Shown piece by piece: positions 19,196-64,000 of a stretch of DNA of 64,000 nt. The position numbers and the translations under genes were made by a program. The notes under the pieces are model-generated. The model had not been told where the DNA came from, ran no database searches, and worked only from the letters and a program-made list of their open reading frames with translations. How positions within the stretch are numbered: the stretch's first letter is position 1; each line of letters begins with the position of its first letter. This DNA comes from a virus. The stretch is taken from positions 1 to 64,000 of the IMG/VR virus record IMGVR_UViG_3300009151_003928. The stretch is one strand, 5' to 3'.

Positions 19196-19211
19196 TTTGA
19201 GTACCAAGTAG

Positions 19212-46769: not shown

Positions 46770-47734
46770 ATATATTAATTTTAGGTGGACACGGATTCAT
46801 TGGGCACCATGTGGCACGACAAATGTCCGACTTAGGGCACAACGTATCAACCGTCGACATACATCATCAATACGGCGAATATCAGGATTGGGAATATTTT
46901 CCAGTATTGTTACAACGCCTGCACTACATGGGCGCACACAACGGTCTTCAAGGCAATGTTTGTGATCCGGTATTTATGGATAATGCGTTTGCAACTACTA
47001 AACCCGATGTAGTAATTGATCTTGCTACATACCCTAATGCTAAGATGGTTAAAAAGAATGTAGTAGATGCCACAACCAATATGATTGCGGCCACTGCTAT
47101 TGCTCTAGATCTTTGTGTCAAGTACAATGTCAAACGTTTTGTACTAGCAAGTAGTTCGATGGTATATGGCGACTTTGATGCGTTCACAGGTGCACCAAAC
47201 GAAACTGCCGTATGTGATCCGCTGACTTTATATGGTAGTTATAAATTACAATGCGAACGTATGTGTAAAATTTGGAACCACGAACATGGTTTAGAATATG
47301 CATTGTTACGCCCTAGTGCTTTGTATGGCACACGCGATATGGTAGTACGTGTTATTAGTAAAATGACAGTGGCTGCATTAAAGACCGGCAAGATGATTGT
47401 TAACGGTCCGGACAATAAACTAGACTTTAGTTATGTAACAGATGTAGCTAGTGCATTTACTACCGTGGCACTTGATCCAAATTGTGTTAATAGTACGTTT
47501 AATTGTACACGTGGCAATGGTAGAAGAATTATAGAAGCTGCCGAAATGATACAATCAAGAATACCCAGTGAGATTGTAATTCAGCCGCACGATGTGTTTT
47601 ATCCTAATAGAGATACACTCAACAGTAGATTTTTACAAGAGTGTACTAACTGGCGTCCTACTGTAGATATTGAAGAAGGTATTCCCAAGTACTTAGATTG
47701 GTTCTTAGCACAAGACTTCTTAGACCAATTCTAA
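46766..47734 (+). CDS. NAD-dependent sugar epimerase/dehydratase (second)
   Basis: 322 residues. LGGHGFIGHHV at the start (GxxGxxG), VLASSSMVYGD and Y156-x3-K160 (YGSYK), then LDFSYVTDVASAF. Similar in outline to the SDR at 44145, suggesting duplication and divergence. ATGA overlap with the aminotransferase. Its end overlaps the convergent repeat-protein gene by 15 bases without a visible terminator. Confidence 0.88.
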   Translation: MNILILGGHGFIGHHVARQMSDLGHNVSTVDIHHQYGEYQDWEYFPVLLQRLHYMGAHNGLQGNVCDPVFMDNAFATTKPDVVIDLATYPNAKMVKKNVVDATTNMIAATAIALDLCVKYNVKRFVLASSSMVYGDFDAFTGAPNETAVCDPLTLYGSYKLQCERMCKIWNHEHGLEYALLRPSALYGTRDMVVRVISKMTVAALKTGKMIVNGPDNKLDFSYVTDVASAFTTVALDPNCVNSTFNCTRGNGRRIIEAAEMIQSRIPSEIVIQPHDVFYPNRDTLNSRFLQECTNWRPTVDIEEGIPKYLDWFLAQDFLDQF

Positions 47735-49558: not shown

Positions 49559-50822
49559 GTATAACCTATCCAATCATTATGAAAATATCTATCAGTACCT
49601 ACGTACTATTATAGCAGATGTGAGGGTCGCTTATCTACATCCTTTTGGATCAACTTCACCAGAAAACATAGAAATGATACGTAATGTTGACAATGAAGTA
49701 GATGATATTGACACCGACGTTGCTAATATGAAATTTGATGATTTCTTGCCTACCGACAAAGACATGTACGATAGGTTTATTAACCATAAATTATTATCTC
49801 GTGTGCCACTGTTCTTATTCTATGATCAAGAACCCTTAGACCTACATTATAATTATCCATTACTCAAATGGCTGACAGAAAATACTCATGCTCCGTGGGT
49901 ATTAGTTAACACCGAAAGAAACAGCTACGACCGAGATCGAATATGTAATGAATTGCCGTTTGCTGAAGTAAACTATTTCTTTCATATTTTTGCGGCAGCA
50001 GATTGGTTCCGAGGACATGAATATTTGCCAGGCATTGTTGCTCCTGCCGATCGTAAATTAAAGAAAACTTACATATCATTTAATCGTATTACAAGCAACA
50101 AACGATTGTATCGTAGTCTATTAGTTAACGAATTATACAAAAACAATTTACTTGAACACGGCTATGTTAGTTACAGTAAAGTATGTCCTGATACCAATGA
50201 TTCATTTGATGTAAGTATTAGGGCAGGCATTCCTGAGTATCCACTCAGTCATGTACTTAAAGAAGAAGTAATTGCTAACATAGAACAATTACCCGAGTTA
50301 CGTATAGACTTTGCCAAGGAAGATTTTATTCCCAATCAAAGTATGCTATTAAGTCCCTTACGTCAACTAATGGAAAGTTTTTTATTCCTAGTAACAGAAA
50401 CTTGCTACTTTCAAAACAAAACGCATTTGACTGAAAAGATATTTAAACCCATTGTACTACGTATGCCATTTATACTTGTGGGCTGTGCCAACAACTTAGA
50501 ATATTTACGTAGCTATGGGTTTAAAACCTTTGGTGATTTCTGGGACGAAAGTTACGATACTATTTTTGATCCAATACAACGACTTGATGCTATTGTAAAG
50601 ATTTTAAAAGATATTAGTAGCATGAGTATTGCGGAACAACAAGACATGTTAGTCAAGATGCAACCTGTATTAGATCATAACTATAACTTGTTCAATGATC
50701 CCAACTTTGTACGTCAAGAATGGGATCATTTAAAAGAACAGCTCAGACTTATGTGTTTGAACTATGAATTTAAACCGCCGTATAAACCAAATCCTAGACT
50801 AGGGCAAGCGATTCCATGCTAA
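49557..50822 (+). CDS. probable glycosyltransferase-like protein
   Basis: 421 residues from ATG 49557; a GTG at 49620 (before VRVAYLHPFG) is a credible alternative. The C-terminal half has SFLFLVTETCYFQNKTHLTEKIFKPIVLRMPFILVG, then YLRSYGFKTFGDFWDESYD, a pattern of phage and bacterial proteins I regard as GT-B-like with the T-E-K motif at the donor site. No named family is certain. It is the only rightward gene in 47.7-64 kb and overlaps the convergent DUF2061 gene by 24 bases. Confidence 0.68.
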   Translation: MYNLSNHYENIYQYLRTIIADVRVAYLHPFGSTSPENIEMIRNVDNEVDDIDTDVANMKFDDFLPTDKDMYDRFINHKLLSRVPLFLFYDQEPLDLHYNYPLLKWLTENTHAPWVLVNTERNSYDRDRICNELPFAEVNYFFHIFAAADWFRGHEYLPGIVAPADRKLKKTYISFNRITSNKRLYRSLLVNELYKNNLLEHGYVSYSKVCPDTNDSFDVSIRAGIPEYPLSHVLKEEVIANIEQLPELRIDFAKEDFIPNQSMLLSPLRQLMESFLFLVTETCYFQNKTHLTEKIFKPIVLRMPFILVGCANNLEYLRSYGFKTFGDFWDESYDTIFDPIQRLDAIVKILKDISSMSIAEQQDMLVKMQPVLDHNYNLFNDPNFVRQEWDHLKEQLRLMCLNYEFKPPYKPNPRLGQAIPC

Positions 50823-50984
50823 TTCATGTATATAGTACAAGATAGTATTGGCAATCATCTGTGCAATAGCAATACTGGTAGCAAGAAAAAATTGCCCAGT
50901 AACCAAGTAACTTATTAAGAATGTACTAGTTGACCCGACCAAGCGCCAGGTCAACGTTTTCCATAATGTGCGATACTTATTCAA
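50799..50984 (-). CDS. DUF2061 membrane protein
   Basis: 61 residues with two membrane segments. KTLTWRLVGSTSTFLISYLVTGQ and ATSIAIAQMIANTILYYIHELAWNR are the DUF2061 signature. As I recall, such proteins are often found next to or fused with APS-kinase-type genes in bacteria, which is the case here (8-base overlap with the kinase). Function unknown. Confidence 0.88.
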   Translation of the reverse strand: MNKYRTLWKTLTWRLVGSTSTFLISYLVTGQFFLATSIAIAQMIANTILYYIHELAWNRLP

Positions 50985-51768
50985 TTCCTAAACTCTTACG
51001 TATCTTAGTAGCACTAATATCCGTTATCTTTTCATCAAACGTTTCTTCGCCGCTGGTATAACCAACTCCACGACCCCATCCAATATGTACAATGTTAGGT
51101 ACAACTTGTATGTCATACAATCCTTGATATAGCGGATCTAGATCCTGTTTAATAAAGCTCTTGACTTTTTCTACTTCAAACGGATTGCTACCTTGCCAAC
51201 CTTGTACGTCACGCACTTGTATAATAACTTGTCCAGTCCGGGCTAACAGTCTTTCAAATAGCGCACGGTGTCCGTCGTGCCATGGTTGCCAGCGACCTAA
51301 CATCTGTACTGTTTCTTTACGCCAATCAAATACAGGGCGTCTGCGGTTTTCTACAATATGTTCAGCAATAAAGTCTGCCCATTTAACAGCGTTTTGCTCG
51401 TTAACACGGAAGTCGTATACTTCAGGTTCCACAAACATTTTGTTTGTATCAGCATATCGACCTTCGCGGATAGTATCCATCCAAACAGTCCAGTCTGCTT
51501 TGAAGTTATTACGCATTTCTACCAAAGGTGCAACAAAGTCGCAAAGTGCGTAGTCGGTTCCACAAGTGTCTGCTAGGTCGTACATGCGTTTGCTTTGACG
51601 AATACGGCCTGCTTCACTAAAATCCCAATCGTCAAATTGTTTACGAACTTCGTCGGCATTAAACCATGTTACGGTTTTGCCACAGTCTTCTAATAGCTTT
51701 TTTAGTTCTGTTGCTAGATAAGTTTTTCCTGAGCCAGGAAGGCCCATAATTAAAATACGTTGTGTCAT
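50977..51768 (-). CDS. APS kinase-like domain fused to a nucleotidyltransferase-like domain
   Basis: 263 residues. Residues 1-150 resemble adenylylsulfate kinase: Walker A GLPGSGKT at 9-16, FNADEVR near 36-42, FSEAGRIRQSKRM near 50-62. Residues 155-263 look like an HxGH-class nucleotidyltransferase: GRWQPWHDGHRAL with H164 and H167, and ISATKIRKS at 251-259. The kinase half would make PAPS from APS. The second half may be a sulfurylase-like or cytidylyl/adenylyl transferase. PAPS could serve the sulfotransferase at 5473. It overlaps DUF2061 and the carbamoyltransferase. Confidence 0.75.
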   Translation of the reverse strand: MTQRILIMGLPGSGKTYLATELKKLLEDCGKTVTWFNADEVRKQFDDWDFSEAGRIRQSKRMYDLADTCGTDYALCDFVAPLVEMRNNFKADWTVWMDTIREGRYADTNKMFVEPEVYDFRVNEQNAVKWADFIAEHIVENRRRPVFDWRKETVQMLGRWQPWHDGHRALFERLLARTGQVIIQVRDVQGWQGSNPFEVEKVKSFIKQDLDPLYQGLYDIQVVPNIVHIGWGRGVGYTSGEETFDEKITDISATKIRKSLGIE

Positions 51769-53240
51769 GAATATACCTTTACGTTATAGAGTTTTTCAAA
51801 GCGATCTGCATCAGCGCGGTCATTGACCATTGGTTCACCTTTAATGTTAAGACTTGTGTTTAATAACATTGGACAACCAGTTAAGACATACCATTTTTCT
51901 AGGAGTTCTCTAATTCCTGAACTATTAGCTGGTACTGTTTGTATACGACTAGTGCCATCATAGTGGACAATAGCAGGAAATAACTTAGGGTGGCGACAGC
52001 GACCCACCACTTGCATATAACTGCTATCAACAAACCCACTAGGCATGTCAAAGTAATCGTTAACGTGCTCTGCCAAAATAATCGGCGCAAATGGTCTAAA
52101 TTCTTGTCTACGTTTAATTTGGTTGACACGGTCTTTTATGTCCGGACCCCGCGGGTCGGCGAGTAGACTTCTGTTTCCAAGGGCCCTTGGTCCAAATTCT
52201 GCTCTTCCAGAGGCCACCCCCACGATCTTATCTCTAAGGAGTCCGTCGAGCGCGGTGTTAACTGGATAAGGACCGGGAATACTGTGTCCGAGAAATGCAT
52301 GGTCAAACTGTATTCTGCCGCCGTGGACAAGAGCGGCCGCACCAAGGCTACTACCAGCATCACCAGGGTTAGGCATGATCCATACTTTTTCAAAATAATC
52401 ACCAAGATTTCTATTAGCTAAACAGTTAAGGGCAACACCGCCCATATATACCAAGTTTGTACTCCACCCAAAGTCTTTTGCGCGGCGCATAACATTATAT
52501 ATCAAATTTTCACAAAAAGCCTGTGCAGAACTGGCAATATCTTCAACATCAAATTTTGAGTTCCACTCGTAGCTGGTACCAGTGTGTAAATTTTCTTTAA
52601 ACTTGATGTTCCACTCGTCTGCTAGTAGTTGCATACTCATTGACGTACTGGCTTTATCAGTCCCATATGCGGCCATACCCATTAAGATGTATTCATCTTC
52701 CATGGGCTTTAGTCCAGCTTGTTGTGTCATTGCTGTATAAAACAATCCTATGCTGTGTGGATACTTCTGCCCCCATAGCCGATGATACTGTGCCCGTCCA
52801 TTGACATAATGAGCACCCCAAATACTAATTGTGTCCCACTCACCAATTGCATCAATAACAACTACAGTAGCTCGATCAAAGGTACTAGTTTGGAATCCAG
52901 CCGCGGCATGACTTAAATGATGATTGTGCGAACTATATTCTGGAAATTTAAAACCGCAAAGTTGTTTTTTTAATATTTGCTGTACAGTAAATTTGTTCCA
53001 TTCTATTCCTTCTCCACTATACCATCTACGTAACTGTTTTGCCCACGGACGTTCATAATATGCAACATGGTATATGGGACTATGTTGCATGACGTCGGTA
53101 AACAATTCACTGGCAAATTCAGCATCGTTTTTAATTTTGCTGTAACGTTCACTATGGCCTGCAAATAGTATCTCTCCGTGAGGGTTTAATACTGTTGCGG
53201 CCGCATCATGAAAGCCAGCCGAGATTCCTAATATATTCAT
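51765..53240 (-). CDS. O-carbamoyltransferase (NodU/CmcH/TobZ family)
   Basis: 491 residues. ILGISAGFHDAAATVL at the start, HNHHLSHAAAGF at 105-116 (metal-binding His set), VVVIDAIGEWDT, YMGGVALNCLANRNL and ASGRAEFGPRALGNRS near 347 make this family clear. It uses carbamoyl phosphate and ATP to carbamoylate a hydroxyl, usually on a sugar or antibiotic. It overlaps the SGNH gene by 35 bases and the kinase by 4. A G+C-rich stretch with shifted codon use covers the GRAEFGPRALGNRS core. Confidence 0.93.
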   Translation of the reverse strand: MNILGISAGFHDAAATVLNPHGEILFAGHSERYSKIKNDAEFASELFTDVMQHSPIYHVAYYERPWAKQLRRWYSGEGIEWNKFTVQQILKKQLCGFKFPEYSSHNHHLSHAAAGFQTSTFDRATVVVIDAIGEWDTISIWGAHYVNGRAQYHRLWGQKYPHSIGLFYTAMTQQAGLKPMEDEYILMGMAAYGTDKASTSMSMQLLADEWNIKFKENLHTGTSYEWNSKFDVEDIASSAQAFCENLIYNVMRRAKDFGWSTNLVYMGGVALNCLANRNLGDYFEKVWIMPNPGDAGSSLGAAALVHGGRIQFDHAFLGHSIPGPYPVNTALDGLLRDKIVGVASGRAEFGPRALGNRSLLADPRGPDIKDRVNQIKRRQEFRPFAPIILAEHVNDYFDMPSGFVDSSYMQVVGRCRHPKLFPAIVHYDGTSRIQTVPANSSGIRELLEKWYVLTGCPMLLNTSLNIKGEPMVNDRADADRFEKLYNVKVYS

Positions 53241-53844
53241 AATATTTGTCTGCTACTTTTACGTGACCTTCGTTTAAGAAATGATTGCTTTTGCCCCTAG
53301 GAGATTCAAATGTCCATTCTGCCATGCCATTCATTGGCCACTCTATAAATTGTGTATAATCTATCTTGTCTAATAGATCTTGACTGGTGTCTTTAAGTGT
53401 ACTGTAATAATATTCTGTTTCGCCTTGTGTAGTTGACATTAGATACTTGATGTTTTGTGTTTTTAGATAATTCTGAGTCAGTATTATATCAGTCAGGTAC
53501 CGTCGAAACAAATATTTAGGTTCGTGACTTGCTGTTATCAATCTAGCAAACTCGGGCTGAAACATGTCAATCGGTCGTCCTTGCCAACCGGGCCATACAT
53601 CAAATGTATTGGTTATGGTTCCAAACTCTACTCGCCCTGGACTTGTCCACCCTACTACCACCAAGTCATAATCGGTTGCATGTTCCACAATGTTACGAAC
53701 TATTTGTGTATTGCCGCCGCCAGGCTTGCCCAAGTTAGTTACAGTGGTATCAAGTTTGCCGGCCAACACACAAGGCCATGACTGTGTGCGATCTGCTAGA
53801 TCAGATCCATAGGTAAAGCTGTCGCCTACTGCCAGTATTTTCAT
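53206..53844 (-). CDS. SGNH/GDSL hydrolase-like protein (leftward copy 2)
   Basis: 212 residues. MKILAVGDSFTYGSD gives the Ser block, KPGGGNTQIV the Gly/Asn block, and a late His (NEGHVKVADKYYEY) could complete the site. Such enzymes hydrolyse esters, often sugar acetates. It follows the other leftward SGNH gene after a 69-base gap and overlaps the carbamoyltransferase. Confidence 0.78.
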   Translation of the reverse strand: MKILAVGDSFTYGSDLADRTQSWPCVLAGKLDTTVTNLGKPGGGNTQIVRNIVEHATDYDLVVVGWTSPGRVEFGTITNTFDVWPGWQGRPIDMFQPEFARLITASHEPKYLFRRYLTDIILTQNYLKTQNIKYLMSTTQGETEYYYSTLKDTSQDLLDKIDYTQFIEWPMNGMAEWTFESPRGKSNHFLNEGHVKVADKYYEYIRNLGWLS

Positions 53845-53913: not shown

Positions 53914-54690
53914 CTATTGTATATGTTTCTTAACCAATTCATTGAATTTATCTTTCATTATTTTGGAAGCATCCAGATGTGCTTGCTCAAGTGGATGTGT
54001 TGTGCCTACTGGGTATTTATTCTCTAACGCCCACTGGTAAAAACCTCTTTGGGTTTTGGTTTGGTTTGAGCCTTTACCTTCAGGAAACCAAAACCATTTT
54101 AAATAGTCAATTTGGTTTAGCAAACTTGATAGTACCGAATCGGCGTTGTCCACTGTATGGTTATTAAATAGGCAATTATCTGCACAAGTAAACATAAATG
54201 GTATGCCCTTAACTGTTAGATAATTTTGTAGATAAACAATTTCTTTAAGACTACTGTATATTTCCCAGTACTCAGTTGACCCTACGTGTTTATAAAAGGA
54301 ATCTGCAAAATCAGCAACTCCAGTTTGCTTTGCACGTTCAATAGTTTGTTTTTGTGCAGTAAGTATTTCTGCATTATCTGTAACAAATTCTTCTTTAATA
54401 GAATCAATATCAGATTTAATAGTCCAAACATTAATACTGTACCACGGGCTTTTCTTTTGTTGAGTATTGTAGGCAAATCTAAACTCGTATCGTCCCGGGA
54501 ATGTCCAACTAACAATTACACCAGTTACACCGCCTTGTTCACAACGTTCTATAGTAGTACGAGCAATAGCGTCATTTCCGTAACCTGGCCATGCGACACA
54601 TTCATCTGCACCCAATAAGGCTGTAAATGTGTTAGCAGGACTTTTTAGTTCACTTCCAAATACAAAACTATCTCCGGCTGCTATAATCAT
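53914..54690 (-). CDS. SGNH/GDSL hydrolase-like protein (leftward copy 1)
   Basis: 258 residues. MIIAAGDSFVFGSELK, PGYGNDAIAR and GTTHPLEQAHLDASKIM provide the Ser, Gly/Asn and His elements. It overlaps the upstream 376-residue gene by 23 bases. Substrate unknown. Confidence 0.75.
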   Translation of the reverse strand: MIIAAGDSFVFGSELKSPANTFTALLGADECVAWPGYGNDAIARTTIERCEQGGVTGVIVSWTFPGRYEFRFAYNTQQKKSPWYSINVWTIKSDIDSIKEEFVTDNAEILTAQKQTIERAKQTGVADFADSFYKHVGSTEYWEIYSSLKEIVYLQNYLTVKGIPFMFTCADNCLFNNHTVDNADSVLSSLLNQIDYLKWFWFPEGKGSNQTKTQRGFYQWALENKYPVGTTHPLEQAHLDASKIMKDKFNELVKKHIQ

Positions 54691-55798
54691 ATCCAGGTTT
54701 CATCATGTTAATTTGTAATTGTTTATAATCAGAGTCTGACCAACAAAAATCATAAGTTTGACTTATGTCTCCCACTTCAATTTTATATATGTCTAAATGG
54801 TTTTTAAGTATTTGCCAAACTACTTCAGGGCTATTATTACCAAATGAACCGTCTAAGTCAATTTGTCCCATTGGCAAGTACCCAAGACTTAATGTAGGAT
54901 CCGTGCAATCTTTATTATTTTTTTCTAGCCAAGCATAAAAGCCATCTAGTTCGTCGGTGTGCCACTGACACTCTTTGCCACCATATACTGTATCTCTGCC
55001 CCATTCTACATCAAACTCGCCACTATAGTATTTTAACTCATTGATAGCTTCGCATACTGTGTCAGTTAAGTTTGGTGCGTGTTCATCTCTATATACTTCA
55101 AATAGTGTTTTTCCTATTTGTGTCCAGTGCATATATACCCCGCCAAACACACGATCATATCCATTGGTAACAAACCCTTGACGATGTTCAAGTGTCAAGT
55201 TATGTCGTTGTGCTTGTAGAAAAGTAGTAATTTGACTAGGACGTATATACTGTGGTGTTGTTGCTTGTTTGCGCTGACTCAAACATAAGTTCTCCATCTC
55301 GTGACAGATGTTGTTTAGTTGACGTATAGCATACTTTGTTTCGTAGTCAGCCAGTTTGTAGTATTCGCTTAATCCCCACACCGTTCCCTGTAAGCGTTCA
55401 AAGTGATTATGCAACGTGTTCATTACACCGTGCTTAATGCCGAGGCCAAGGTTACTTTCATCCCAGCCTATAGGATATTCGTCTCCAAAGCGTACAGTAT
55501 CAGGAGTAAAGTATTCTTCGATTACGTATGGCGTGGGCCAAATACCTTTACGATTAAATAAATTAATTTTATAAACAGCATCATTAAGTTCTTTACATAG
55601 ATAGCCTAAATTACGTGCTGTATACGGAAATCCCATAAAGCAGAAATTCTTTTCTACAAGATTGCCACGCACAAGTAATGCCTTCAATGCGTTAACCCAA
55701 TCTGTGGCCAGCTGAGTATCATTGGGAACTATTGTATAGTCTACTAAGTCATTTTTATCTAACGGATTACGTAATACTACTTTAATTGATTGAGTCAT
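54668..55798 (-). CDS. conserved hypothetical protein of the leftward operon
   Basis: 376 residues, no enzyme motif recognised. An alpha/beta N-terminal part (KVVLRNPLDKNDLVDYTIV), a helix-rich middle with aromatic clusters (IKHGVMNTLHNHFERLQG), and SLGYLPMGQIDLDGSFGNNSPEV near the end. It sits between the radical SAM array and the SGNH genes with 17- and 23-base overlaps, so it probably works in the same pathway. I cannot assign it. Confidence 0.75.
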   Translation of the reverse strand: MTQSIKVVLRNPLDKNDLVDYTIVPNDTQLATDWVNALKALLVRGNLVEKNFCFMGFPYTARNLGYLCKELNDAVYKINLFNRKGIWPTPYVIEEYFTPDTVRFGDEYPIGWDESNLGLGIKHGVMNTLHNHFERLQGTVWGLSEYYKLADYETKYAIRQLNNICHEMENLCLSQRKQATTPQYIRPSQITTFLQAQRHNLTLEHRQGFVTNGYDRVFGGVYMHWTQIGKTLFEVYRDEHAPNLTDTVCEAINELKYYSGEFDVEWGRDTVYGGKECQWHTDELDGFYAWLEKNNKDCTDPTLSLGYLPMGQIDLDGSFGNNSPEVVWQILKNHLDIYKIEVGDISQTYDFCWSDSDYKQLQINMMKPGYDYSSRR

Positions 55799-57074
55799 AC
55801 CATTCCAGTGCGTCCGGTCTTAAAGACATTATGTCTCTAAAAGTATACACGTCTTTTCGAATTTTTTCAAGTTCTTGTATGCGAGCTTTGCCCTTACGTA
55901 ACCCAGCTTGATATTCTGTGGGCCATTGTTCAGCAAAGGTGGGGCGGGTTTTAAGTTGGACCATTATGTCCCGAAGGGCACCGGGTTCTAAGCCGGCTAC
56001 TATTTCGTCTACCCAAGGATGCAATACATCTTTAGGTAGTGCCAACGGAGACATAATTATGTCCGGACTAAAACTAAAAACTACTTTGGCTAGTACGTCT
56101 ACTCCAAGTTCTTTTGCGAGCGTTTGTATCGCTTGTACTTCAAAGAGTCCTGGTGTAGTAAGAGTGAAATCCATACGGATTTGGCGGCGGTGTTGGCTAT
56201 GCGTAATTCCTTCAATGAAGTTCTTAAGCCACTCATCAAAATTAAGACCTGATCGAATATACTCTCCAATTCGGCCCGTGCCGTCGATGCTTGCACAGAT
56301 TTGCCAGTCACGTAGCCCAGATAGTATGTCCCTATACAGATTAATACCACGATAATTAACACGACTAAGATTTGTATTATACCTAGCGTAAACATTTTTT
56401 CCATCTCCAAGTTCTATAATCCGCTTCATGTATCGCCAATGCTGTTCATACATTAACGGCTCGCCTCCCACCCAATACACCTCTTCCACTCGGTGCTCTT
56501 CAACAGCAGTAGCAAACTCTTGCTCTACCTGGGTGTCTTGAAACTTTTCAATTTCTATTTTGACTTCAGGTTTCATCCAATTATTCTTTGGATTGTTCCA
56601 ATCAATCATATTGTTTTGCCGTTGCTCGCTTTCCCAAGCACTGGACAACATATCCCCACACATTCGACATTTGAAGTTACACAGATTACTAAAACGGTAA
56701 TCCCAGCTTACAGGTTTCATCGTGGTATAACCTGTAATGTCTGTACTCGCCATTGCGTCTAAGTACTTATTGCCAAATAGCTGATTAAAATAACTACGGT
56801 AAACATCTGTGTTTAATAGCTTGTCATTACATACTTCGCACTCGGGCAGGGTCTCTCCAGCCATCATGCGTTGACGTACTGACTTCATGTGTTTGCTATT
56901 CCAATGCTCATCTAGAGTAATTGGTATGTACTTGCCCGTGCCTGCTTGGGTGTCTATATATTGCTCAAAGTTTTGTGCATCTTCGCGGCTAGCACAGCAC
57001 ATACGACGTTCAGTCTGCGGACTTAGATACGTGTGTACCCAAGGTGCCATACATAGTGTTGCTGGCTTATTCAT
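55782..57074 (-). CDS. radical SAM enzyme with N-terminal twitch-like cysteines (array member 7)
   Basis: 430 residues. N-terminal cysteines C8, C26/C27, C79 and C82 in the frame CMAPW...RMCCAS...LPECEVC, then the radical SAM motif C132-x3-C136-x2-C139 (CNFKCRMC) and VGGEPLMYEQHW (GGEP). It lacks the R-x-x-NF-x-x-T tail of the other members, ending in DALEWYDSIN. The N-terminal CMAPW-type module is that of twitch-domain radical SAM enzymes. Substrate unknown. Overlaps both neighbours. Confidence 0.88.
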   Translation of the reverse strand: MNKPATLCMAPWVHTYLSPQTERRMCCASREDAQNFEQYIDTQAGTGKYIPITLDEHWNSKHMKSVRQRMMAGETLPECEVCNDKLLNTDVYRSYFNQLFGNKYLDAMASTDITGYTTMKPVSWDYRFSNLCNFKCRMCGDMLSSAWESEQRQNNMIDWNNPKNNWMKPEVKIEIEKFQDTQVEQEFATAVEEHRVEEVYWVGGEPLMYEQHWRYMKRIIELGDGKNVYARYNTNLSRVNYRGINLYRDILSGLRDWQICASIDGTGRIGEYIRSGLNFDEWLKNFIEGITHSQHRRQIRMDFTLTTPGLFEVQAIQTLAKELGVDVLAKVVFSFSPDIIMSPLALPKDVLHPWVDEIVAGLEPGALRDIMVQLKTRPTFAEQWPTEYQAGLRKGKARIQELEKIRKDVYTFRDIMSLRPDALEWYDSIN

Positions 57075-58281
57075 AACCCATTGCCCTGGCTATTTCAAGA
57101 TGAGTATCCATGAAGTTTTGTTTACGGTAAGCATCTGTGCGTTGCATTTCAAATAAGAAACGTTTACCGTCACTGCCTTGACCAAGTTCAATAAACTTGA
57201 TTACATTATCTATTTCTTGTTGATAATGACGACTAGTCCAAAAGGTTGTTTTTAATTTGTTAAGCACTAGTTCTTTAGCAGTAGGGGTCATATGTTGTAT
57301 GTTCATATACTCCGGGCTGTGCATCATGTTAAAGTAAATGCTAGTCCACGGTTTAGTATCTGCCCAGGCGAGCAGTTCATCTAAGTAATAGACATTTTGT
57401 ATATTAATAGTAAAACATAGTTGTGTAGTAATATTAGAAGCAAAATCAGTTCTTGCAAAATGAGTTTTGTCTATGTTTTCATTTACTTCTTCCCACTTTG
57501 CACCAAATCGTTCGTATTCAAATCGCTTGCCTACGTTATCTATACTAAATGCAATATCTACACGACCAAACTGTGCCCATAGTTTTGTGTAAGGCAACGG
57601 GTTTTGTGTACCATTGGTATTGTAATGTATATCAATGTTACGACTATATCCTTTGTCTGCCGCATATTGTAGCAAGTCAAAGTGTTCCTGAATCATCCAG
57701 GGTTCGCCGCCTGTAAATTCAAAGTACTTAATATTTGGTAACAATGATCGCATGTTATCCCAAAATGTAGTTGTTTTACGTGGCCAGGCGCCTTGCTTTA
57801 ACCAAGTATATGCTAAATGCTTTTTCTTATCTTCGCCCGCTGGCAAGTAATTCATTTCTTCTGTGGCCCAACTGCTACTGGACCAAGAGCCGCATATACG
57901 ACATTTAAGATTACAAATATTACCTAATTTTAAATCTACAAACCATAGCTGGTCAGGATTGTTGTTAGACCAATCAACTTCCTTGTATATTTCTTTTAAT
58001 CTTATTTGACTGTTGATACGCTTACTGTCACGGCCAGCATCTTCTTCGTCCCAACAACGTTTACATGTCTTGGGCTTTTTACCAGCACGAAACTGCTCTC
58101 GTAAGTCTTGCATATATTTGCTATGGTACACAACTTCTAAATTTGTTTTGTTCAGGTCGTACTTGGCACCATTCTCATCGACAATTTCTTCGTCAGCAAG
58201 ACAACAAGGGCGTGTAGTGCCCAATGGACTAGTCTCAACACTAATCCAAGGTAACATACAAATTGTATTAGGTAGCGTCAT
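57067..58281 (-). CDS. radical SAM enzyme with N-terminal twitch-like cysteines (array member 6)
   Basis: 404 residues. C8, C26/C27, C73 and C76 precede the radical SAM C123-x3-C127-x2-C130 (CNLKCRIC) and FTGGEPWMIQEHF. The tail is YRKQNFMDTHLEIARAMGYE. It is most similar to the following member (58268-59503): LDLKLGNICNLKCRICG, GTTRPCC and AMxY endings are shared, indicating a tandem duplication. Confidence 0.9.
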   Translation of the reverse strand: MTLPNTICMLPWISVETSPLGTTRPCCLADEEIVDENGAKYDLNKTNLEVVYHSKYMQDLREQFRAGKKPKTCKRCWDEEDAGRDSKRINSQIRLKEIYKEVDWSNNNPDQLWFVDLKLGNICNLKCRICGSWSSSSWATEEMNYLPAGEDKKKHLAYTWLKQGAWPRKTTTFWDNMRSLLPNIKYFEFTGGEPWMIQEHFDLLQYAADKGYSRNIDIHYNTNGTQNPLPYTKLWAQFGRVDIAFSIDNVGKRFEYERFGAKWEEVNENIDKTHFARTDFASNITTQLCFTINIQNVYYLDELLAWADTKPWTSIYFNMMHSPEYMNIQHMTPTAKELVLNKLKTTFWTSRHYQQEIDNVIKFIELGQGSDGKRFLFEMQRTDAYRKQNFMDTHLEIARAMGYE

Positions 58282-59503
58282 AATTCATTGCTCGTGCTAT
58301 TTCTGGATGTGTTTCTGCAAAATTTTCATTGCGTAATTTGTCTAGTTGTTTCATCTTAATACGGAACGAAGAACCATCTGTACTCATTGCTCTGTTAATA
58401 AAATCAATTATTTTGTTAATCTCTGGTTTATAAATATTGTTAAATTTTCCATTTTTTAATTTTTCTATTACTAGCTGTTTGGCAGTATCGGTCATTTCAC
58501 CAATGCTCATGTAACCAGGGAAATGTACTAGGCCAAAATGTACGTAATCAAATTTGTGCTGATCAAACCAATTGCATAATTCTTCAAGATAGTAGACATT
58601 TTGTATGTTTACTGTTGCGCTTATCTGAAGTTCTATGTGCGGCAAATGTTTTTTTAATGCTTGAAATTTTATTATGTTTGCATTGACCTTGTCCCAATCT
58701 GCTCCGGATCGTTCTAGATTAAATTGTTTGCCAATTGCATCGATACTAAATGCTATTTCAACACGTTTAAAATTTTTCCATAAGTCTTCTGCACCCTCTG
58801 GGAATATGGTACCATTGGTATTATAAAACAAGTGTTGATATTTACTATAGCCATTATCCACGCTATATTGTAATAGATCAAAGTGCTCTTGTATCATAAA
58901 AGGTTCGCCACCAGTAAAATCTAAGAATTTAATCTTGGGTATTATTGTATAAAGTTCTTCCCAGAATCCTTTACTTGTGCGAGGCCACTCGCCTTCAACC
59001 AACCATGTTTTCTGAATGCTATTTTTACGTTGTTCATATGGTATCTGCATTAAACTTTCTTGGGCCCACTTGCTACTGATCATTGGGCCGCAGATACGAC
59101 ATTTAAGATTGCAAATGTTACCCAGTTTTAAATCCAAATATAAAAAATGTACCGGATCTAGCGTAGTAAAATTTAACATTGGCAATATCATATTCATTTT
59201 ATGTAAATGATTAAGACGTTTGCTAGTTTTTCCTACGGCTTCTTCGTTCCAACAGCGCCGACATCCTGCAGGTTTTTTTCCGTCAATGAACTCTTGTCTT
59301 AGATTTTTCATCCAGTCACTGTGATATATTTCCATGATACTATCTGTAGCAAGGTTATACGGAGTACCGTTGGGACGTTTGATAATATCTTCGCTTATAC
59401 AACATGGTCTGGTTGTTCCGGTAGTATTTGCCGCAATACTAGACCAAGGCAACATACAAGTTGTTGGATGTTTATTTAATGCCACAGGTTTGATTGCACT
59501 CAT
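58268..59503 (-). CDS. radical SAM enzyme with N-terminal twitch-like cysteines (array member 5)
   Basis: 411 residues from ATG 59503; a start at 59545 would overlap the upstream gene by 74 bases. C16, C34/C35, C81 and C84, then C131-x3-C135-x2-C138 (CNLKCRIC) and FTGGEPFMIQEHF. Tail LRNENFAETHPEIARAMNY. Very close in layout to member 6. Overlaps upstream by 32 bases. Confidence 0.9.
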   Translation of the reverse strand: MSAIKPVALNKHPTTCMLPWSSIAANTTGTTRPCCISEDIIKRPNGTPYNLATDSIMEIYHSDWMKNLRQEFIDGKKPAGCRRCWNEEAVGKTSKRLNHLHKMNMILPMLNFTTLDPVHFLYLDLKLGNICNLKCRICGPMISSKWAQESLMQIPYEQRKNSIQKTWLVEGEWPRTSKGFWEELYTIIPKIKFLDFTGGEPFMIQEHFDLLQYSVDNGYSKYQHLFYNTNGTIFPEGAEDLWKNFKRVEIAFSIDAIGKQFNLERSGADWDKVNANIIKFQALKKHLPHIELQISATVNIQNVYYLEELCNWFDQHKFDYVHFGLVHFPGYMSIGEMTDTAKQLVIEKLKNGKFNNIYKPEINKIIDFINRAMSTDGSSFRIKMKQLDKLRNENFAETHPEIARAMNYDAT

Positions 59504-60461
59504 ATATTTTTCCAGTTGGAACAGTTTTGTCCCAGGATTCTTCAATTTTATTAAACCATGCTATTGCATGTTCTAGTCCGTACTCTATTGCGTTATTTTC
59601 CATTATTAAAGGTTTTAACTGTGCGTTACTTGGACGACTATTACTATGTAAAGGATAGTAGCCCAGCCAGCAACAAGGGTACACTTCGCCGTTGCTTGCT
59701 ACATATACTTCTTGCATTTTTTTAGCATAGCAACTAATTTCTCTATTTTCAGTCTCTGACATAACTGCTATAGTAGGATCAGTTTCGTAATATTTGTAAT
59801 TATTGTATAACTCATCAAAATTAGTTGATCCACGATAGTCGCCAATGGTATGACTTAATCTTTTATCTGATGTAAACACTGGCATAGTATTGCGTCCTGC
59901 ATCAACTAAATCAAATCTACTAAATCCTAAGTCTCTACTTAAACGTTCACACTCATTGATTTGATGTTGATTATGATCAAATTTAATCATTGCCCATACT
60001 GCTTCTCCTCCAGCACGAATAAATTTTTGAGCATTGTCTAGTATAAACTCAAAGTCAGTATTTTGTCTATATAGTTGATGTGTATCACCCAATCCATCTA
60101 AACGAAAATATACGATTGGTTTAGACTTTGCCAGTCGTTCCCATATCTTTGGCTTAGCACTAGCATTGGTACTAATTTCCAAACTTAATTTAGGATTAGA
60201 ATGTACAATGTATTCAACAATTTCTACGCCATCTCTAGCTGTAACAAAATCGCCATAGTTGCCATTGATTTTAAAATTATCTAATTGTTGCAGGAACTCC
60301 GCACTGAATACTTCTTTAAATTCCTCTAGTGACATATCTCGCACAGGATACGTGTCAATGATATCTACACCACGGTAATTGCGTAAGCAATCGGGACAAG
60401 CCGCATTACATCTGGAACTAATTTCTAAATGTATGCTACGTAAATCTTTATAGTTAAGCAT
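59472..60461 (-). CDS. radical SAM enzyme with conventional order (array member 4)
   Basis: 329 residues. Here the radical SAM motif is near the N-terminus, C18-x3-C22-x2-C25 (CNAACPDC), and the accessory cysteines are at the C-terminus (ISCYAKKMQEVYVASNGEVYPCCW and ECNQTCGIK), the normal SPASM/twitch order. Thus the array mixes two architectures. The GGEP region is degenerate (NGNYGD). Overlaps neighbours by 8 and 32 bases. Confidence 0.85.
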   Translation of the reverse strand: MLNYKDLRSIHLEISSRCNAACPDCLRNYRGVDIIDTYPVRDMSLEEFKEVFSAEFLQQLDNFKINGNYGDFVTARDGVEIVEYIVHSNPKLSLEISTNASAKPKIWERLAKSKPIVYFRLDGLGDTHQLYRQNTDFEFILDNAQKFIRAGGEAVWAMIKFDHNQHQINECERLSRDLGFSRFDLVDAGRNTMPVFTSDKRLSHTIGDYRGSTNFDELYNNYKYYETDPTIAVMSETENREISCYAKKMQEVYVASNGEVYPCCWLGYYPLHSNSRPSNAQLKPLIMENNAIEYGLEHAIAWFNKIEESWDKTVPTGKIYECNQTCGIK

Positions 60462-61791
60462 TTAACGCTGAGAACTCCGGGAAGGTAGACCAAAAATTTT
60501 CACTACGTAAATCATCTAATGTTTTAATTTCTTGTACAAAACGTGGCCATAAGTCACTGCGGTCATTTGCAGTTAGGAAGTTTAAAATACTTTGGAATCC
60601 TACTGTAGCACGACGTAGTTTATCCTGTGGGTCTAACCACTTGATATGTTTTTGATATGCTGGAATAATAACGTCTTGCTTGAACCATTCAGGGAAAATA
60701 TCAATGCGATACCACTCAGGACTTTGGCAAATATTAATATTAAAATCCTTAGGTTCAATTAACCCTAGCTCTACCCACTCTCGATGAAAGTCTAGTATAT
60801 GTAGAATATTCATAGCACTAACTGTAGCACTAATGTAAAAGTCTACGTGTGGTACTTCTGTCATCATACGTCGACGATTGTCCACTGCCTGTGCCCAGTC
60901 TGTGCCTTTACGTATTAGTTCGCCACGAGCATAGCTACCGTCGAGGCTGGCTCCTACATTTACTGTTTCAAACTTTTTCCAGTAATCAAATACGTGTTTG
61001 TCTTTGTAGCGCATTTCACTGAAGTTTGTATTGTAGATTAATCTACAATCTGTTTTATCTTGTTCTAGTAACCGGTCTAATAGGAAATAATGTTCCTTCA
61101 TGATCAATGGTTCGCCGCCAGCAAAGTATACTTGTTCCAAGTTAGGAATGTGCGGTTCCATTTGTTTTTGTATAGTTTCTTCGTCGCCGGCCGCATACTC
61201 TACACGTAACATTTCTCGACCTAGTACATCTGGCTTGCGGTTGTATAGTTTGACATGATCGTTATACCAATTGCTACTAAAAATAGGACCGCAGGTGCGA
61301 CAACTAAAATTACATAGGTTACTAAATCTAATATCCCAGTAACGGATTTTAAACTCGGGGTGTGTGCCATCTTCATGTGTTAGATCAACGTCCTTAATAA
61401 AATGTCCTTGGTTTCTGTTTGCTTCGTTACGCATACTAAAGAAACCGTTTTCTTCTTGCTCATAGCACTTGGTACATTCTGTACAAGGCCGGTCTTCAAG
61501 CATGTTCTTACGCATGGTTTTGTAACCATCTTGGTTCCAAACTTCTTCCATTGTGTTTTTGCGTAAGTCGCCAATTGGATGCCAGTAGTCTGCTAAACAG
61601 CAAGGGTATGTGCGCCCGTCGGGAAAGGCATGCATATGAGTCCATGGCAAGATACAAAATGTCTTGCTTTCTGTTAGTCGTTCTACTTGTTTTTCTGTTA
61701 GGTCTTCTGCATCTATGTAGTAAGGCATCTTACTCATATAATCGTAACCTTTTTTATAAAATGCTTTTTGACGTTCTGCTTTATCTGTCAT
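60454..61791 (-). CDS. radical SAM enzyme with N-terminal twitch-like cysteines (array member 3)
   Basis: 445 residues. An N-terminal ~40-residue helical extension precedes C46, C64/C65, C103, C106 and C109 (FPDGRTYPCC, PCTECTKC), then C160-x3-C164-x2-C167 (CNFSCRTC) and FAGGEPLIMKEHY. Tail LRSENFWSTFPEFSALNA. Overlaps the downstream gene by 8 bases and the upstream by 4 (ATGA). Confidence 0.9.
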   Translation of the reverse strand: MTDKAERQKAFYKKGYDYMSKMPYYIDAEDLTEKQVERLTESKTFCILPWTHMHAFPDGRTYPCCLADYWHPIGDLRKNTMEEVWNQDGYKTMRKNMLEDRPCTECTKCYEQEENGFFSMRNEANRNQGHFIKDVDLTHEDGTHPEFKIRYWDIRFSNLCNFSCRTCGPIFSSNWYNDHVKLYNRKPDVLGREMLRVEYAAGDEETIQKQMEPHIPNLEQVYFAGGEPLIMKEHYFLLDRLLEQDKTDCRLIYNTNFSEMRYKDKHVFDYWKKFETVNVGASLDGSYARGELIRKGTDWAQAVDNRRRMMTEVPHVDFYISATVSAMNILHILDFHREWVELGLIEPKDFNINICQSPEWYRIDIFPEWFKQDVIIPAYQKHIKWLDPQDKLRRATVGFQSILNFLTANDRSDLWPRFVQEIKTLDDLRSENFWSTFPEFSALNA

Positions 61792-63149
61792 ATTGAATTA
61801 TACCATTCGGTTAATGAGGGAAACGCTTGTGTAAAGTTTTTGTTCCGTCGTTGGTCGTATTGTGTATAGAACTGTTTAAAGTCTCGTTGTAAGACTGATT
61901 GTTCTGCGGCACCCATGTGTGGAGTTTTAACTACATCTAAATAATCTATCAGACGTTGTAGTTGATTAAGTTCAAACTGATGTAGTAACGGATTCTTGCT
62001 GTTATTATCAAACCATGCTTGTAGGCGTAGTTTGTATTGGTGGCGTATTTCGTCTGGGAGTACTAACGGACTTTGAAAACTTGGAAAGCGTAATATATTT
62101 AGCGAAAATGTAGGATAGTCTTTTCCGCACAAGTCTTTCCACTCTAAACATTGATCCAGGAACTCAGGTAAACTATCTAAGCATAGTGCATTAACGGTAC
62201 ACATCATATGGAAGCCTTCTATATTACCGCGTTCCAATACTTTATCTACATTACCGGTCCATTTATCCCACACTAGGCCATCGCGAATATATTCACTTTG
62301 AATACCCACTGCTTCATTGCTTGTGTACAAGTGAAAGTGTTTAAGGCTATGTGATGCATCAATTAAACGATCTATTAAGTCATCCTTTGCACCAAGGTTA
62401 CTATTCATAGCAAACCGCATGTCTGGATTAACTCGATTATCGTTGTTCTTGAACCATTCTAATAGCTTCCACGTGTCTCCCGACATAAGTGGCTCACCGC
62501 CGGTTAATCTTAGCTCCAGTAACGATCTATGAAGGTCAGATTCCCACCACTTAAAGAACGCCTCAACATAAGGATTATACTCACCAAACTTGTAAAGCTG
62601 ACTACTACCATGGCTATGAGTAAAATGATTCCTGCCGTCTGAAGTGAGGCCGGTAAAAGGTCCATTGGTGTCAATATCTTTAACCCAAGTGCTACTGAAA
62701 GCAGGGTTACAGTAACTACACCCAAAATTGCATGTGCGATCAAAAGCAATTTCAAGCGTTCGTAAATCCACATCACTGCTGGCTGGCTGAGCATACGCTG
62801 TCTCCAATTCTTTGTCTGTATATATAACTGTCTTATAAACGCGATCACTAATGTTATCACGTCCTATATCTTCTATCTTCCAGCAGTACTCGCATCCGCT
62901 GGGTCTTTCTCCCTTTTGCATCTGCTCACGTTCCATTTTCTTTTTTTGCGTATTATGTAACGCCTTTGGATTATGTGCAAGATCTTCAACATCAATGGCA
63001 TGTGGCAACGGGTGATGACAACTTGTAGTTTGTCCACTACCTAACCATATCGTGGCATTGTACCATTTGGCTCCGCAGAATGACTCCGACTTAATGTCGA
63101 TTACCCTGCGTTTATATTCTATATCTGTTTCGTTTTTAATTCTGGGCAT
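61788..63149 (-). CDS. radical SAM enzyme with N-terminal cysteines (array member 2)
   Basis: 453 residues from ATG 63149 (63164 is also possible). C25, C44, C86 and C89 (SFCGAKWYNATIWLGSG...SCHHP...GCEYC), then C140-x3-C144-x2-C147 (CNFGCSYC) and LTGGEPLMSGDTW. The N-terminal module keeps the spacing but has CGAKW instead of CMxPW. Tail RRNKNFTQAFPSLTEWYNSI. Closest in style to the truncated gene upstream. Confidence 0.9.
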   Translation of the reverse strand: MPRIKNETDIEYKRRVIDIKSESFCGAKWYNATIWLGSGQTTSCHHPLPHAIDVEDLAHNPKALHNTQKKKMEREQMQKGERPSGCEYCWKIEDIGRDNISDRVYKTVIYTDKELETAYAQPASSDVDLRTLEIAFDRTCNFGCSYCNPAFSSTWVKDIDTNGPFTGLTSDGRNHFTHSHGSSQLYKFGEYNPYVEAFFKWWESDLHRSLLELRLTGGEPLMSGDTWKLLEWFKNNDNRVNPDMRFAMNSNLGAKDDLIDRLIDASHSLKHFHLYTSNEAVGIQSEYIRDGLVWDKWTGNVDKVLERGNIEGFHMMCTVNALCLDSLPEFLDQCLEWKDLCGKDYPTFSLNILRFPSFQSPLVLPDEIRHQYKLRLQAWFDNNSKNPLLHQFELNQLQRLIDYLDVVKTPHMGAAEQSVLQRDFKQFYTQYDQRRNKNFTQAFPSLTEWYNSI

Positions 63150-64000
63150 AGTATCGGCATTCATCCCAAAACTCTTTCATCTGCGGAAAGGTTTCTAGGA
63201 AATTAGTATTGCGACGTTTATCATGTTCATTGAAGAATCTGTAAAAGTCTGCACGTTGCAGTTTAACATAGTCTGGATCTAAATTGCAACCTTCTTTCAT
63301 CCAATCTATGTCTCGACGCATACGCTGTACTTCGTAATCTTTAAATCCATGAAACGGATCATCTGCTGTTTCTAAATTAAGTTCCATCCAGTCAGCTACA
63401 CGTTCTAAATGTTTAGAATATACTGGCGGCAGTATTTGTAAACTTTGCCATTTAGGCTGACGTAACAAGGGAGTATCAAACCAAACACGTTGATAGGTTG
63501 TGCTGTGTTGGCGACGCAAATCTAATATCCACTCGAGTTGTTGTTGTAGGCCTAGTACACTTAAATTATTCATTGTGATAATAAATGTAAGACTATTACG
63601 ATAAGGTATCTCAGTTAAGAAACGCTGTACATTGTGTGCTACTCTTTTGTAATTTAGTCCATTGCGAATATATTCTGCATGGTCTGGTTTCCCGCTATCT
63701 AAACTTACATACTGCATGAAGTGTTCAATTTGTGTATTACATAGATTCTTTACATAGCCCATGTATTTTTCAAATAATGAATCTTCTACACTAAAGTTAC
63801 TAGTAACATCTAAATGCAGTTCAGGATTAGGTAATGCCAACACGTAGTCAAATACTCGATATGTATTTTTATCCATAAGTGGCTCGCCACCAGTCATGCG
63901 GAAATGTTTTAGTTTTGGATAAAGGGTTGGAAACCATTCCCAAAATGCATCGACGTAAGGATTAGGTTGGGAATGTGGTATAGGCCTATTGCGCCCAGTA
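63136..64000 (-). CDS. radical SAM enzyme, cut by the window edge (array member 1)
   Basis: Only the C-terminal part is inside: the frame stays open to base 64000 and reads NPYVDAFWEWFPTLYPKLKHF then MTGGEPLMDKNTYRV, so the Met at 63897 is internal. The cysteine motifs lie beyond the edge. Tail KRRNTNFLETFPQMKEFWDE matches other array members. Overlaps the next gene by 14-29 bases. Confidence 0.85.
   Translation of the reverse strand, partial: TGRNRPIPHSQPNPYVDAFWEWFPTLYPKLKHFRMTGGEPLMDKNTYRVFDYVLALPNPELHLDVTSNFSVEDSLFEKYMGYVKNLCNTQIEHFMQYVSLDSGKPDHAEYIRNGLNYKRVAHNVQRFLTEIPYRNSLTFIITMNNLSVLGLQQQLEWILDLRRQHSTTYQRVWFDTPLLRQPKWQSLQILPPVYSKHLERVADWMELNLETADDPFHGFKDYEVQRMRRDIDWMKEGCNLDPDYVKLQRADFYRFFNEHDKRRNTNFLETFPQMKEFWDECRYYAQN

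Follow-up and report, generated by a model that had tools for sequence, protein, structure and literature searches.

A conserved module of five radical SAM enzymes and glycosyltransferase-like proteins behind the tail-fibre genes of probable jumbo phages

The virus record IMGVR_UViG_3300009151_003928 is a linear sequence of 76,058 bases, of which the first 64,000 (the window) were analysed here. The window ends within an array of seven genes, R1 to R7, for radical S-adenosylmethionine (SAM) enzymes. All seven lie on the minus strand between 55782 and 64000, and each overlaps the next. Their coordinates are 55782-57074 (R1), 57067-58281 (R2), 58268-59545 (R3), 59472-60461 (R4), 60454-61791 (R5), 61788-63164 (R6) and 63136-64000 (R7), the last of which is cut by the window end and continues to 64521 in the record. 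The complete R7 protein has 461 amino acids (locus L009, 3136-4521), and its CxxxCxxC motif falls outside the window. The successive overlaps from R1 to R7 are 8, 14, 74, 8, 4 and 29 nt, where the value of 74 nt presumes that R3 begins at its listed TTG; the ATG at codon 15 could serve instead and would give 32 nt. The preliminary description of this DNA had reported seven consecutive overlapping radical SAM genes, one of them cut, and ten such genes within 64 kb. The open reading frames (ORFs) and a search of the record with PF04055 confirm both statements. At E ≤ 0.001 there are 10 matches, namely the seven array genes plus 8720-9103, 16813-17328 and 27845-28033; the last is weak (15.8 bits), and its gene at 27572-28453 matches a QueE PHROG. 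The array is part of a longer gene string in which all joints from U109 to the DUF2061 gene overlap by 4 to 74 nt, save one gap of 69 nt, and which runs past the window into SGNH-like, glycosyltransferase (GT)-like and tail-fibre genes. The exact T4-type late promoter TATAAATA occurs once between 43 kb and the record end, at 58429 on the plus strand.

To establish which of these genes are held together in related viruses, gene order was compared across IMG/VR from two anchors. U54, the gene downstream of R1, has 111 relatives there, of which the best 80 were kept (72 after removal of identical U54 proteins). Since U54 was the bait, the order count was repeated with R7, which has 331 relatives, of which the best 80 were likewise kept (73 after removal of identical R7 proteins). 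By contig name, 18 of 80 contigs are common to the two sets. The order GT68-R7-R6-R5-R2-R1-U54-CT-U47, in which CT is an O-carbamoyltransferase, is held in 72/72 distinct U54-anchored loci. Within the span that each locus covers, GT68 is present in 32/32, R7 in 53/53, R6 in 64/64, R5 in 65/67, R2 in 68/69, R1 in 69/70, CT in 58/65 and U47 in 55/55. With R7 as anchor the order is held in 73/73 loci, and GT70, GT69 and GT68 each lie upstream in 69/69. In this set R6 is present in 67/67, R5 in 60/63, R2 in 62/62, R1 in 58/59 and U54 in 48/55 at the presence thresholds used (350 bits for U54). A tail-fibre homologue is found upstream on the same strand in all 62 R7-anchored loci that extend far enough, and the order from tail fibre to R7 recurs, where covered, in six more long stretches. 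The conserved gene order in several phages that the preliminary description had named as support is thus found with either anchor.

The misses in these counts have identifiable origins. Those of R5 and R2 (L055, L064 and L078; L299, L301 and L309) are R5-R2 fusions, with L064 being the R2 miss. R1 is missed twice, once where the gene is broken into two frames (L050) and once where the end of the flank truncates it (L291). Of the seven U54 misses in the R7-anchored set, six are divergent U54 genes of 179-207 bits; the remaining locus, L291, stops short of U54. The two R1 frames of L050 encode 195 and 224 amino acids and represent either a damaged core gene or an assembly error; the same choice applies to an R7 match in the record G034 (193094-194384), whose frame is interrupted by two stops and whose C-terminal part is read as a separate piece.

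R3 and R4 have no place in the order that most loci share. Between R7 and U54, 45 of 53 loci contain one to five additional ORFs of 150 amino acids or more, and none of the additional ORFs in those 53 is on the opposite strand; opposite-strand ORFs do occur elsewhere (L046, L318). The locus therefore consists of a fixed core and variable cargo, to which R3 and R4 belong, and its invariant part is GT70, GT69, GT68, R7, R6, R5, R2, R1 and U54. The preliminary description had named homologs that are scattered, lost at random or degenerate in relatives as its refutation. This refutation fails for five of the seven array genes, and the other two are variable inserts. Median identity to the window protein is 74% for R1, 69% for GT68, 68% for R7, 63% for R6, 62% for R2, 61% for U54, 55% for R5 and 45% for U47.

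Six of the seven array genes fall in the family NF033640 (twitch domain-containing radical SAM protein, N_Twi_rSAM), which has a curated cut-off of 170 bits and for which we found no assigned function. The scores are 289 bits for R1, 331 for R2, 340 for R3, 389 for R5 and 305 for R6. The window-cut R7 reaches 156 bits, and the R7 protein from a record with an identical R7 reaches 301 bits. R4 is a radical SAM protein (PF04055, 35 bits) that lacks the N-terminal twitch domain and lies outside the family at 27 bits, whereas a gene distant from the array, at 8405-9499, is likewise over the cut-off. A viperin-like antiviral nucleotide as product was considered and rejected on the scores against the viperin family (NF038283, cut-off 180 bits): the array genes score at most 29.4 bits, and the best of ten proteins scanned, from the gene at 16732-17760, scores 55.6 bits.

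The cysteines C46, C64, C106 and C109 (R5 numbering), the CxxxCxxC motif and GGEP are kept in all 21 rows of an alignment that includes R1, R2, R3, R5 and R6 of the window, the complete R7 and the 8405 protein; all seven cysteines of the auxiliary and CxxxCxxC sets are invariant (21/21). Because the conserved cysteines at C46-C109 stand ahead of CxxxCxxC, the auxiliary cluster precedes the radical SAM core. Treating four N-terminal auxiliary cysteines plus CxxxCxxC as a trait of NF033640 is our own reading and not a curated rule. Among proteins of at least 380 amino acids, the auxiliary cysteines, CxxxCxxC and GGxP are intact in 68/69 R1, 67/67 R2, 65/65 R5, 58/59 R6 and 48/49 R7; the misses are the R1 of L054 and two contig-edge proteins. 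A position-limited regular expression counted fewer intact motifs (61/65 for R5). The preliminary description had given each radical SAM gene a CxxxCxxC or GGEP motif; both motifs are present in the aligned R1, R2, R3, R5, R6 and R7, with the CxxxCxxC of R7 lying beyond the window, and R4 has no GGEP.

The N-terminal auxiliary region of these enzymes resembles the twitch domain of BtrN (PDB 4m7s) when a profile built from nine sequences of the R5, R2 and R3 types is compared, at a weak E value of 0.0065. The matching region occupies residues 164-237 of 269 in BtrN and is N-terminal in the array enzymes.

The five core enzymes are old paralogs. In a FastTree phylogeny of 184 rows, the R1, R2, R6 and R7 proteins group into one exclusive clade per type (local support 72, 80, 98 and 100), and the R5 clade also holds one second copy; the tree took every third of the 72 loci, and many long branches were flagged in it. 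A recent tandem duplication of the core is rejected on this tree. R3 is a paralog of R2, with 47% identity. Values of dN/dS, the ratio of nonsynonymous to synonymous substitution rates, are 0.04-0.17 in the 18 pairs, of 27, for which dS is defined. The pairs are close ones from at most four loci, with a single defined pair each for R5 and R6, and most dS values exceed 1, so that the ratios are indicative only. In six loci R5 and R2 are joined as one double-twitch frame of 838-857 amino acids: L055 5702-8251, L064 5077-7650 and L078 5054-7570 in the U54-anchored set, and L299 14634-17159, L301 12713-15253 and L309 13801-16347 in the R7-anchored set. These fusions suggest consecutive or joint action of the two enzymes and leave the substrate unspecified; as natural constructs they should be useful for biochemistry.

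U54 (54668-55798, minus strand) is the conserved partner at the other end of the array. It has no match in Pfam, NCBIfam or PHROG, and its profile gives no convincing match to PDB sequences. Its AlphaFold2 model (pLDDT 90) may have a weakly cyclophilin-like fold. The neighbours listed by VIA are mostly cyclophilins, with Z from 8.7 to 7.4 (145 aligned residues and rmsd 3.5 for the top match), and values near 8 are common by chance. Foldseek returned no cyclophilin at E ≤ 0.001, and a comparison of the U54 profile with 13 bacterial cyclophilins gave a probability of 1.3%. Ten viral predicted structures match U54 at E ≤ 0.001, one of them from Agrobacterium phage Atu_ph07. Searches for U54 relatives among 50,697 phage records, and with a pattern scan in bacterial genomes, found none, and a profile search that lacked a positive control found no match in Vibrio phage K566 or Atu_ph07.

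Upstream of R7 and beyond the window, TF72 and TF74 match tail-fibre PHROGs and TF71 has no PHROG match. By eye, TF74 (74409-75998 in the record; L009 14409-15998) contains a stretch rich in Asn, Thr and Ser with repeated GNVTGNV-like units, which is conceivable as an acceptor for decoration. The model of GT68 (pLDDT 88) is GT-A-like, with a Foldseek E value of 3e-4 to RmlT and lower-ranking matches to SunS and TarS. The VIA rows for GT68 are all GT-A or nucleotidyltransferases, at a Z of 8.4 that is near the background of the tool; absence of a family from a VIA list does not exclude that family. GT69 and GT70 resemble each other weakly. These tail-fibre and GT-like genes, which the preliminary description could not have taken into account, point to glycan chemistry.

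Downstream of U54, the minus strand continues with accessory genes. Two SGNH hydrolases had been proposed here; both genes are variable accessories, of which SG53 (53206-53844) has a Lipase_GDSL_2 match of 21.5 bits, under the Pfam cut-off, and SG54 (53914-54690) has no Pfam match and resembles SG53 (blastp E 9e-12), so that both are best called SGNH-like. Pfam supports the other three assignments made at the outset. The frequent accessory CT (51765-53240) carries both domains that define an O-carbamoyltransferase (PF16861, 163 bits; PF02543, 120 bits) and matches phrog_1601. The gene at 50977-51768 encodes an APS-kinase-like kinase (PF01583, 37 bits; phrog_10255, kinase) with a nucleotidyltransferase-like C-terminal part (phrog_3041, cytidyltransferase, E 9e-4). 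A small DUF2061 membrane protein (50799-50984; PF09834, 66 bits) has the sole transmembrane-like segment among 34 proteins tested, which comprised the island plus the 8405, 16732 and ThyA proteins. Because the other 33 lack such a segment in this simple hydropathy scan, the tested proteins show neither a flippase nor a polymerase. Further along, GT49 (49557-50822, plus strand) is GT-like by eye, has no Pfam or PHROG match, and is 45% identical to GT65 over 88 amino acids. U47 (47720-49573, minus strand) has a domain homologous to GT68 (28% identity over 225 amino acids). On the plus strand follow two genes for a DegT aminotransferase (PF01041, 180 bits) and an NAD-dependent epimerase (PF01370, 124 bits) at 45669-47734, and two for a nucleotide-sugar epimerase (phrog_540) and a PIG-L deacetylase (PF02585, 49 bits) at 44145-45733.

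It is very probable that the window represents part of the genome of an uncultured jumbo phage, as judged from its nearest polymerases and from the U54 and NF033640 matches in the records of long relatives. The DNA polymerase encoded at 1082-3742 has its nearest counterparts in Sinorhizobium phage Phosso (51%) and Atu_ph07 (47%), with genomes of 469 and 490 kb, neither of which yields an NF033640 match above the cut-off. Relatives of this polymerase occur in 509 viral contig stretches, of which the best 80 were kept, and the 12 with contigs longer than 40 kb were searched. U54 matches occur in seven of these 12 records, one of them weak (27 bits), and every one of the four records that reach 280 kb or more is in this group; the match is lacking in the other five, among them G035 (240 kb). 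NF033640 matches at E ≤ 0.001 are present in 11/12 and exceed the cut-off in 9/12. Searches of the records behind 33 of the 80 U54-anchored loci gave 5 to 16 NF033640 matches in each (33/33), some of them under the cut-off, with the highest count in G009 (356,865 bp). The ribosomal protein bS21 is encoded in 7 of 9 records searched (G007, G009, G024, G027, G034, G036 and G037) and was not found in the other two, which are the window's own record and G023. A divergent U54 relative of 284 amino acids (27-32 bits) is present at L253 6922-7776 in a polymerase-bearing record, and the R core is absent from the 20 kb around it.

We consider the chances about even that this locus is a module for building and editing glycans, more likely those of virion fibres than those of the host surface. 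The seven radical SAM genes form the middle of an overlapping gene string of ∼20 kb located behind the tail-fibre genes of a jumbo-phage clade. If the hypothesis is true, then the GT-like proteins would most likely assemble a glycan from nucleotide sugars. Each of the five core radical SAM enzymes could then remove a hydrogen atom from a single site in the sugars, or in the junction between glycan and protein, which would lead to oxidation, epimerisation, deoxygenation or C-modification. The twitch enzyme BtrN acts in this manner on an aminocyclitol. R5 and R2 would probably act in succession, because some phages fuse both. The decoration might be varied by accessories such as the SGNH-like proteins, the carbamoyltransferase, the kinase-nucleotidyltransferase and extra radical SAM enzymes. 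The acceptor is more likely to be the co-encoded tail fibres than the host surface, and U54 may be an acceptor-binding or chaperone-like factor. Glycan chemistry is suggested by the GT-like partners in every covered locus, by the BtrN-like auxiliary domain and by comparable arrangements in phages K566 and CP220 and in the bacterial contig L098 (see below), whereas the virion is suggested as acceptor by the place of the module after the tail-fibre genes and by soluble enzymes with no flippase or polymerase among the 34 proteins. We infer the chemistry, substrate, acceptor and role of U54 from the observed gene order, conservation, cysteine motifs, fusions and named family matches. A more specific proposal, which we advance only tentatively, is that a large uncultured jumbo-phage clade makes fibres that are glycosylated and tailored by radical SAM enzymes, with a single operon for the fibres, the glycosyltransferases and five radical enzymes that rewrite sugars or sugar-protein links.

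Several observations weigh against a glycan module for fibres. Its substrate and product are putative, and adjacency to fibre genes is no proof that fibres are the acceptor. The fold matches of GT68 are weak (TM score about 0.3) and do not separate glycosyltransferases from nucleotidyltransferases; GT69 and GT70, which match nothing in Pfam or PHROG, are GT-like by eye from a DxD-type stretch; and GT65, GT66 and GT49 are paralogs of one another with no supporting family match. For the radical SAM core, the peptide maturase SkfB is a slightly better match (E 0.0014, also weak) than BtrN. The scan for flippases was limited to 34 proteins, and the remaining jumbo genome was not searched. Beside bacterial radical SAM homologs, the 103 neighbouring proteins include five GT2 matches and two each of GT1 and GT4 (among the best 25 of 120 families), so that a glycan context is not universal; this Pfam scan covered 103 of 105 selected proteins from 38 of 58 loci, each of at most 900 amino acids. 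No Pfam family was found in the two proteins of CP220 that are annotated with NDP-sugar-transferase domains. Finally, the loci belong to one phage clade and their shared order partly reflects descent; the informative part is the distinction between fixed core and variable cargo, plus the fusions.

The radical SAM enzymes could instead modify the tail-fibre polypeptide itself, by side-chain or backbone changes such as cross-links, thioethers, epimerisation or C-glycosylation on repeated segments, with U54 presenting the chain and the GT-like proteins acting alongside. SPASM/twitch radical SAM enzymes are often peptide maturases, which accords with SkfB as the best solved match of the core and with the fixed place behind tail-fibre genes (62/62). 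The weak cyclophilin-like fold of U54 would also fit, as would the eight radical SAM genes of Aeromonas phage 332-Vera, described within a structural and tail-fibre gene cluster (PMC12390700). However, the auxiliary domain resembles that of BtrN, a sugar-type enzyme, and the gene string has no intergenic gap above 75 nt that could hold a separate precursor gene, overlapping small ORFs and distant genes aside. Pfam, which can overlook divergent RREs, gave no PqqD/RRE-type leader-binding domain at E 0.01 in any of 10 proteins scanned. With neither such a match nor a spaced precursor gene, a classical ribosomally synthesized and post-translationally modified peptide is unlikely, and fibre polypeptide modification as a whole seems rather improbable. 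We judge it unlikely, too, that the sugar is placed on the lipopolysaccharide (LPS) or capsule of the host, where it would block rival phages. Glycan clusters of jumbo phages have been so interpreted (PMC7824862, section 3.4.10), radical SAM cassettes are described in a variable region of pelagimyophages (PMC7029224), and DegT, epimerase and PIG-L genes adjoin the module. Yet the argument in PMC7824862 is made from sporadic presence, whereas the core studied here is in nearly every covered locus, and no flippase, polymerase or membrane glycosyltransferase was seen among the 34 proteins, the rest of the genome not having been searched.

Two further explanations are much less probable. Decoration of phage DNA bases by the radical SAM, GT-like and carbamoyltransferase proteins would have a precedent in the phage carbamoyltransferase that turns 5-hydroxymethylcytosine (5hmC) into 5-carbamoyloxymethylcytosine (PMC8670742), and both a nearby thymidylate synthase and the base-related chemistry of QueD and QueE elsewhere in the window could be read in its favour. 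In that same source, Asp at thymidylate synthase position 177 is the mark of the 5hmC route. The synthase was found in 9 of 12 records searched, and its specificity position is Asn in 8/9, Ala (read by eye) in 1/9 and Asp in 0/9; CT, moreover, is missing from 7/65 covered loci, and the module adjoins tail-fibre genes. The Asn or Ala at the synthase position and the dispensable CT make DNA carbamoylation a disfavoured reading, and hypermodification in general is very doubtful. Very doubtful as well is a small molecule, either a signal or an antibiotic-like aminosugar, made by enzymes of the aminoglycoside type. The DegT, PIG-L, BtrN and TobZ-type carbamoyltransferase families have roles in aminoglycoside pathways, and the corresponding DegT, PIG-L, BtrN-like radical SAM and carbamoyltransferase genes co-occur here; a halogenated secondary metabolite has also been proposed for jumbo cyanophages with carbamoyltransferases (PMC7824862). 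Against this, the PIG-L of the window appears in one of 80 U54-anchored loci, whose reach varies (L028, with an identical U54); outside L028 the DegT score is at most 149 bits, compared with 828, although not all loci extend that far; and the linkage to tail fibres is left unexplained.

The module itself is real and conserved, and our confidence in the glycan mechanism proposed for it is moderate. Phages with many radical SAM genes, several of them unrelated, have had no settled explanation, and the module gives this phenomenon a defined shape, with five orthologues, an order, partners, fusions and a linkage to fibres. If virion glycans or fibres are indeed edited, then radical chemistry would join phage host recognition, and the module would supply new sugar or glycoprotein enzymes; the locus would represent a dedicated virion-modification pathway for which no described counterpart was found. 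In IMG/VR, U54 and R7 by themselves have 111 and 331 relatives.

Elsewhere in the window, a QueD-like PTPS (26660-27160) and QueE (27572-28453) make a 7-deazaguanine pathway probable in this phage. The non-twitch radical SAM gene at 16732-17760, whose best match is the sub-threshold one to viperin, has a gene for an AMP-binding enzyme close by on the other strand (18116-19207). A DUF6071 protein (29375-30121) lies near queE, outside the island, and SG67 matches DUF6071 as well.

Relatives of the array enzymes also occur in bacterial assemblies. The Bacteroidetes contig L098 combines an R5-like radical SAM gene with genes for a carbamoyltransferase, a GDSL-like protein (under cut-off), UbiA, GT1, an epimerase and a UDP-sugar dehydrogenase. 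In a gammaproteobacterial metagenome-assembled genome (MAG), L135 350-13503 carries six N-twitch-like radical SAM hits with an R4-like, a U47-domain and an epimerase-like gene on one strand. In a Bacteriovoracaceae MAG (L107 7366-11221), R3-like and R5-like genes adjoin a homologue of R1 (426 bits), and the R1 type may therefore extend beyond phages. L092, a 7.7-kb contig that was binned as Flavobacterium and is possibly phage, has homologues of R6, R5, R1 and R2 (276-502 bits) in another order. No relatives of R6 or of the 8405 protein were found in phage records.

Several known systems resemble this locus in part, and the preliminary statement that it is unlike known phage modules is too strong, as phages with multiple radical SAM genes have been published (PMC2853527, PMC5332604, PMC7029224, PMC12390700). 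Campylobacter phages CP220 and CPt10 are described with 11 and 12 radical SAM proteins, which were called highly unusual (PMC2853527). Five such genes of CP220 accompany a possible amidinotransferase and the two annotated NDP-sugar-transferase domains. The authors consider a module of five radical SAM genes interchangeable and likely non-essential (PMC2853527); unlike in the array examined here, none of seven CP220 matches reaches the NF033640 cut-off. A T4-like genome, TARA_ERS488813_N000010, is reported with 12 radical SAM genes (PMC5332604), and five radical SAM proteins are given in PMC12398825. Phage 332-Vera, placed in Chimallinviridae by its authors (PMC12390700), is likened to our locus by description. 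Vibrio phages K566 and K567 have GT8 genes among their radical SAM genes, comparable to the GT-like partners here; in K566, two radical SAM genes are over the NF033640 cut-off, one GT8 gene lies between radical SAM genes and another beside one, and no relatives of the K566 radical SAM protein used as query were found in viral contigs.

Glycan islands and fibre-linked cassettes provide the other comparison. In the pelagimyophage host-recognition cluster, radical SAM genes occur with tail fibres in a variable island, where they are added cassettes (PMC7029224), whereas here they form a fixed five-gene core. Jumbo cyanophage clusters of the LPS type include glycosyltransferases, epimerases and carbamoyltransferases and are described as sporadic and polymorphic (PMC7824862, section 3.4.10); the main text of that analysis of 224 jumbo phages does not contain the word "radical." Phage virion glycosylation is on record (Freeman 2023, as cited in PMC12619734), and PMC10783043 and PMC9723584 are further prior art. 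The full-text literature searched, which leaves out most subscription papers, has no description of a conserved five-radical-SAM module linked to tail fibres. Many radical SAM genes per phage and glycan islands near fibres are thus known already. Compared with NF033640 genes elsewhere, those of this locus are five old paralogs in a fixed order behind tail-fibre genes, and it is this fixed module of five radical SAM enzymes, three GT-like proteins and U54 that is new.

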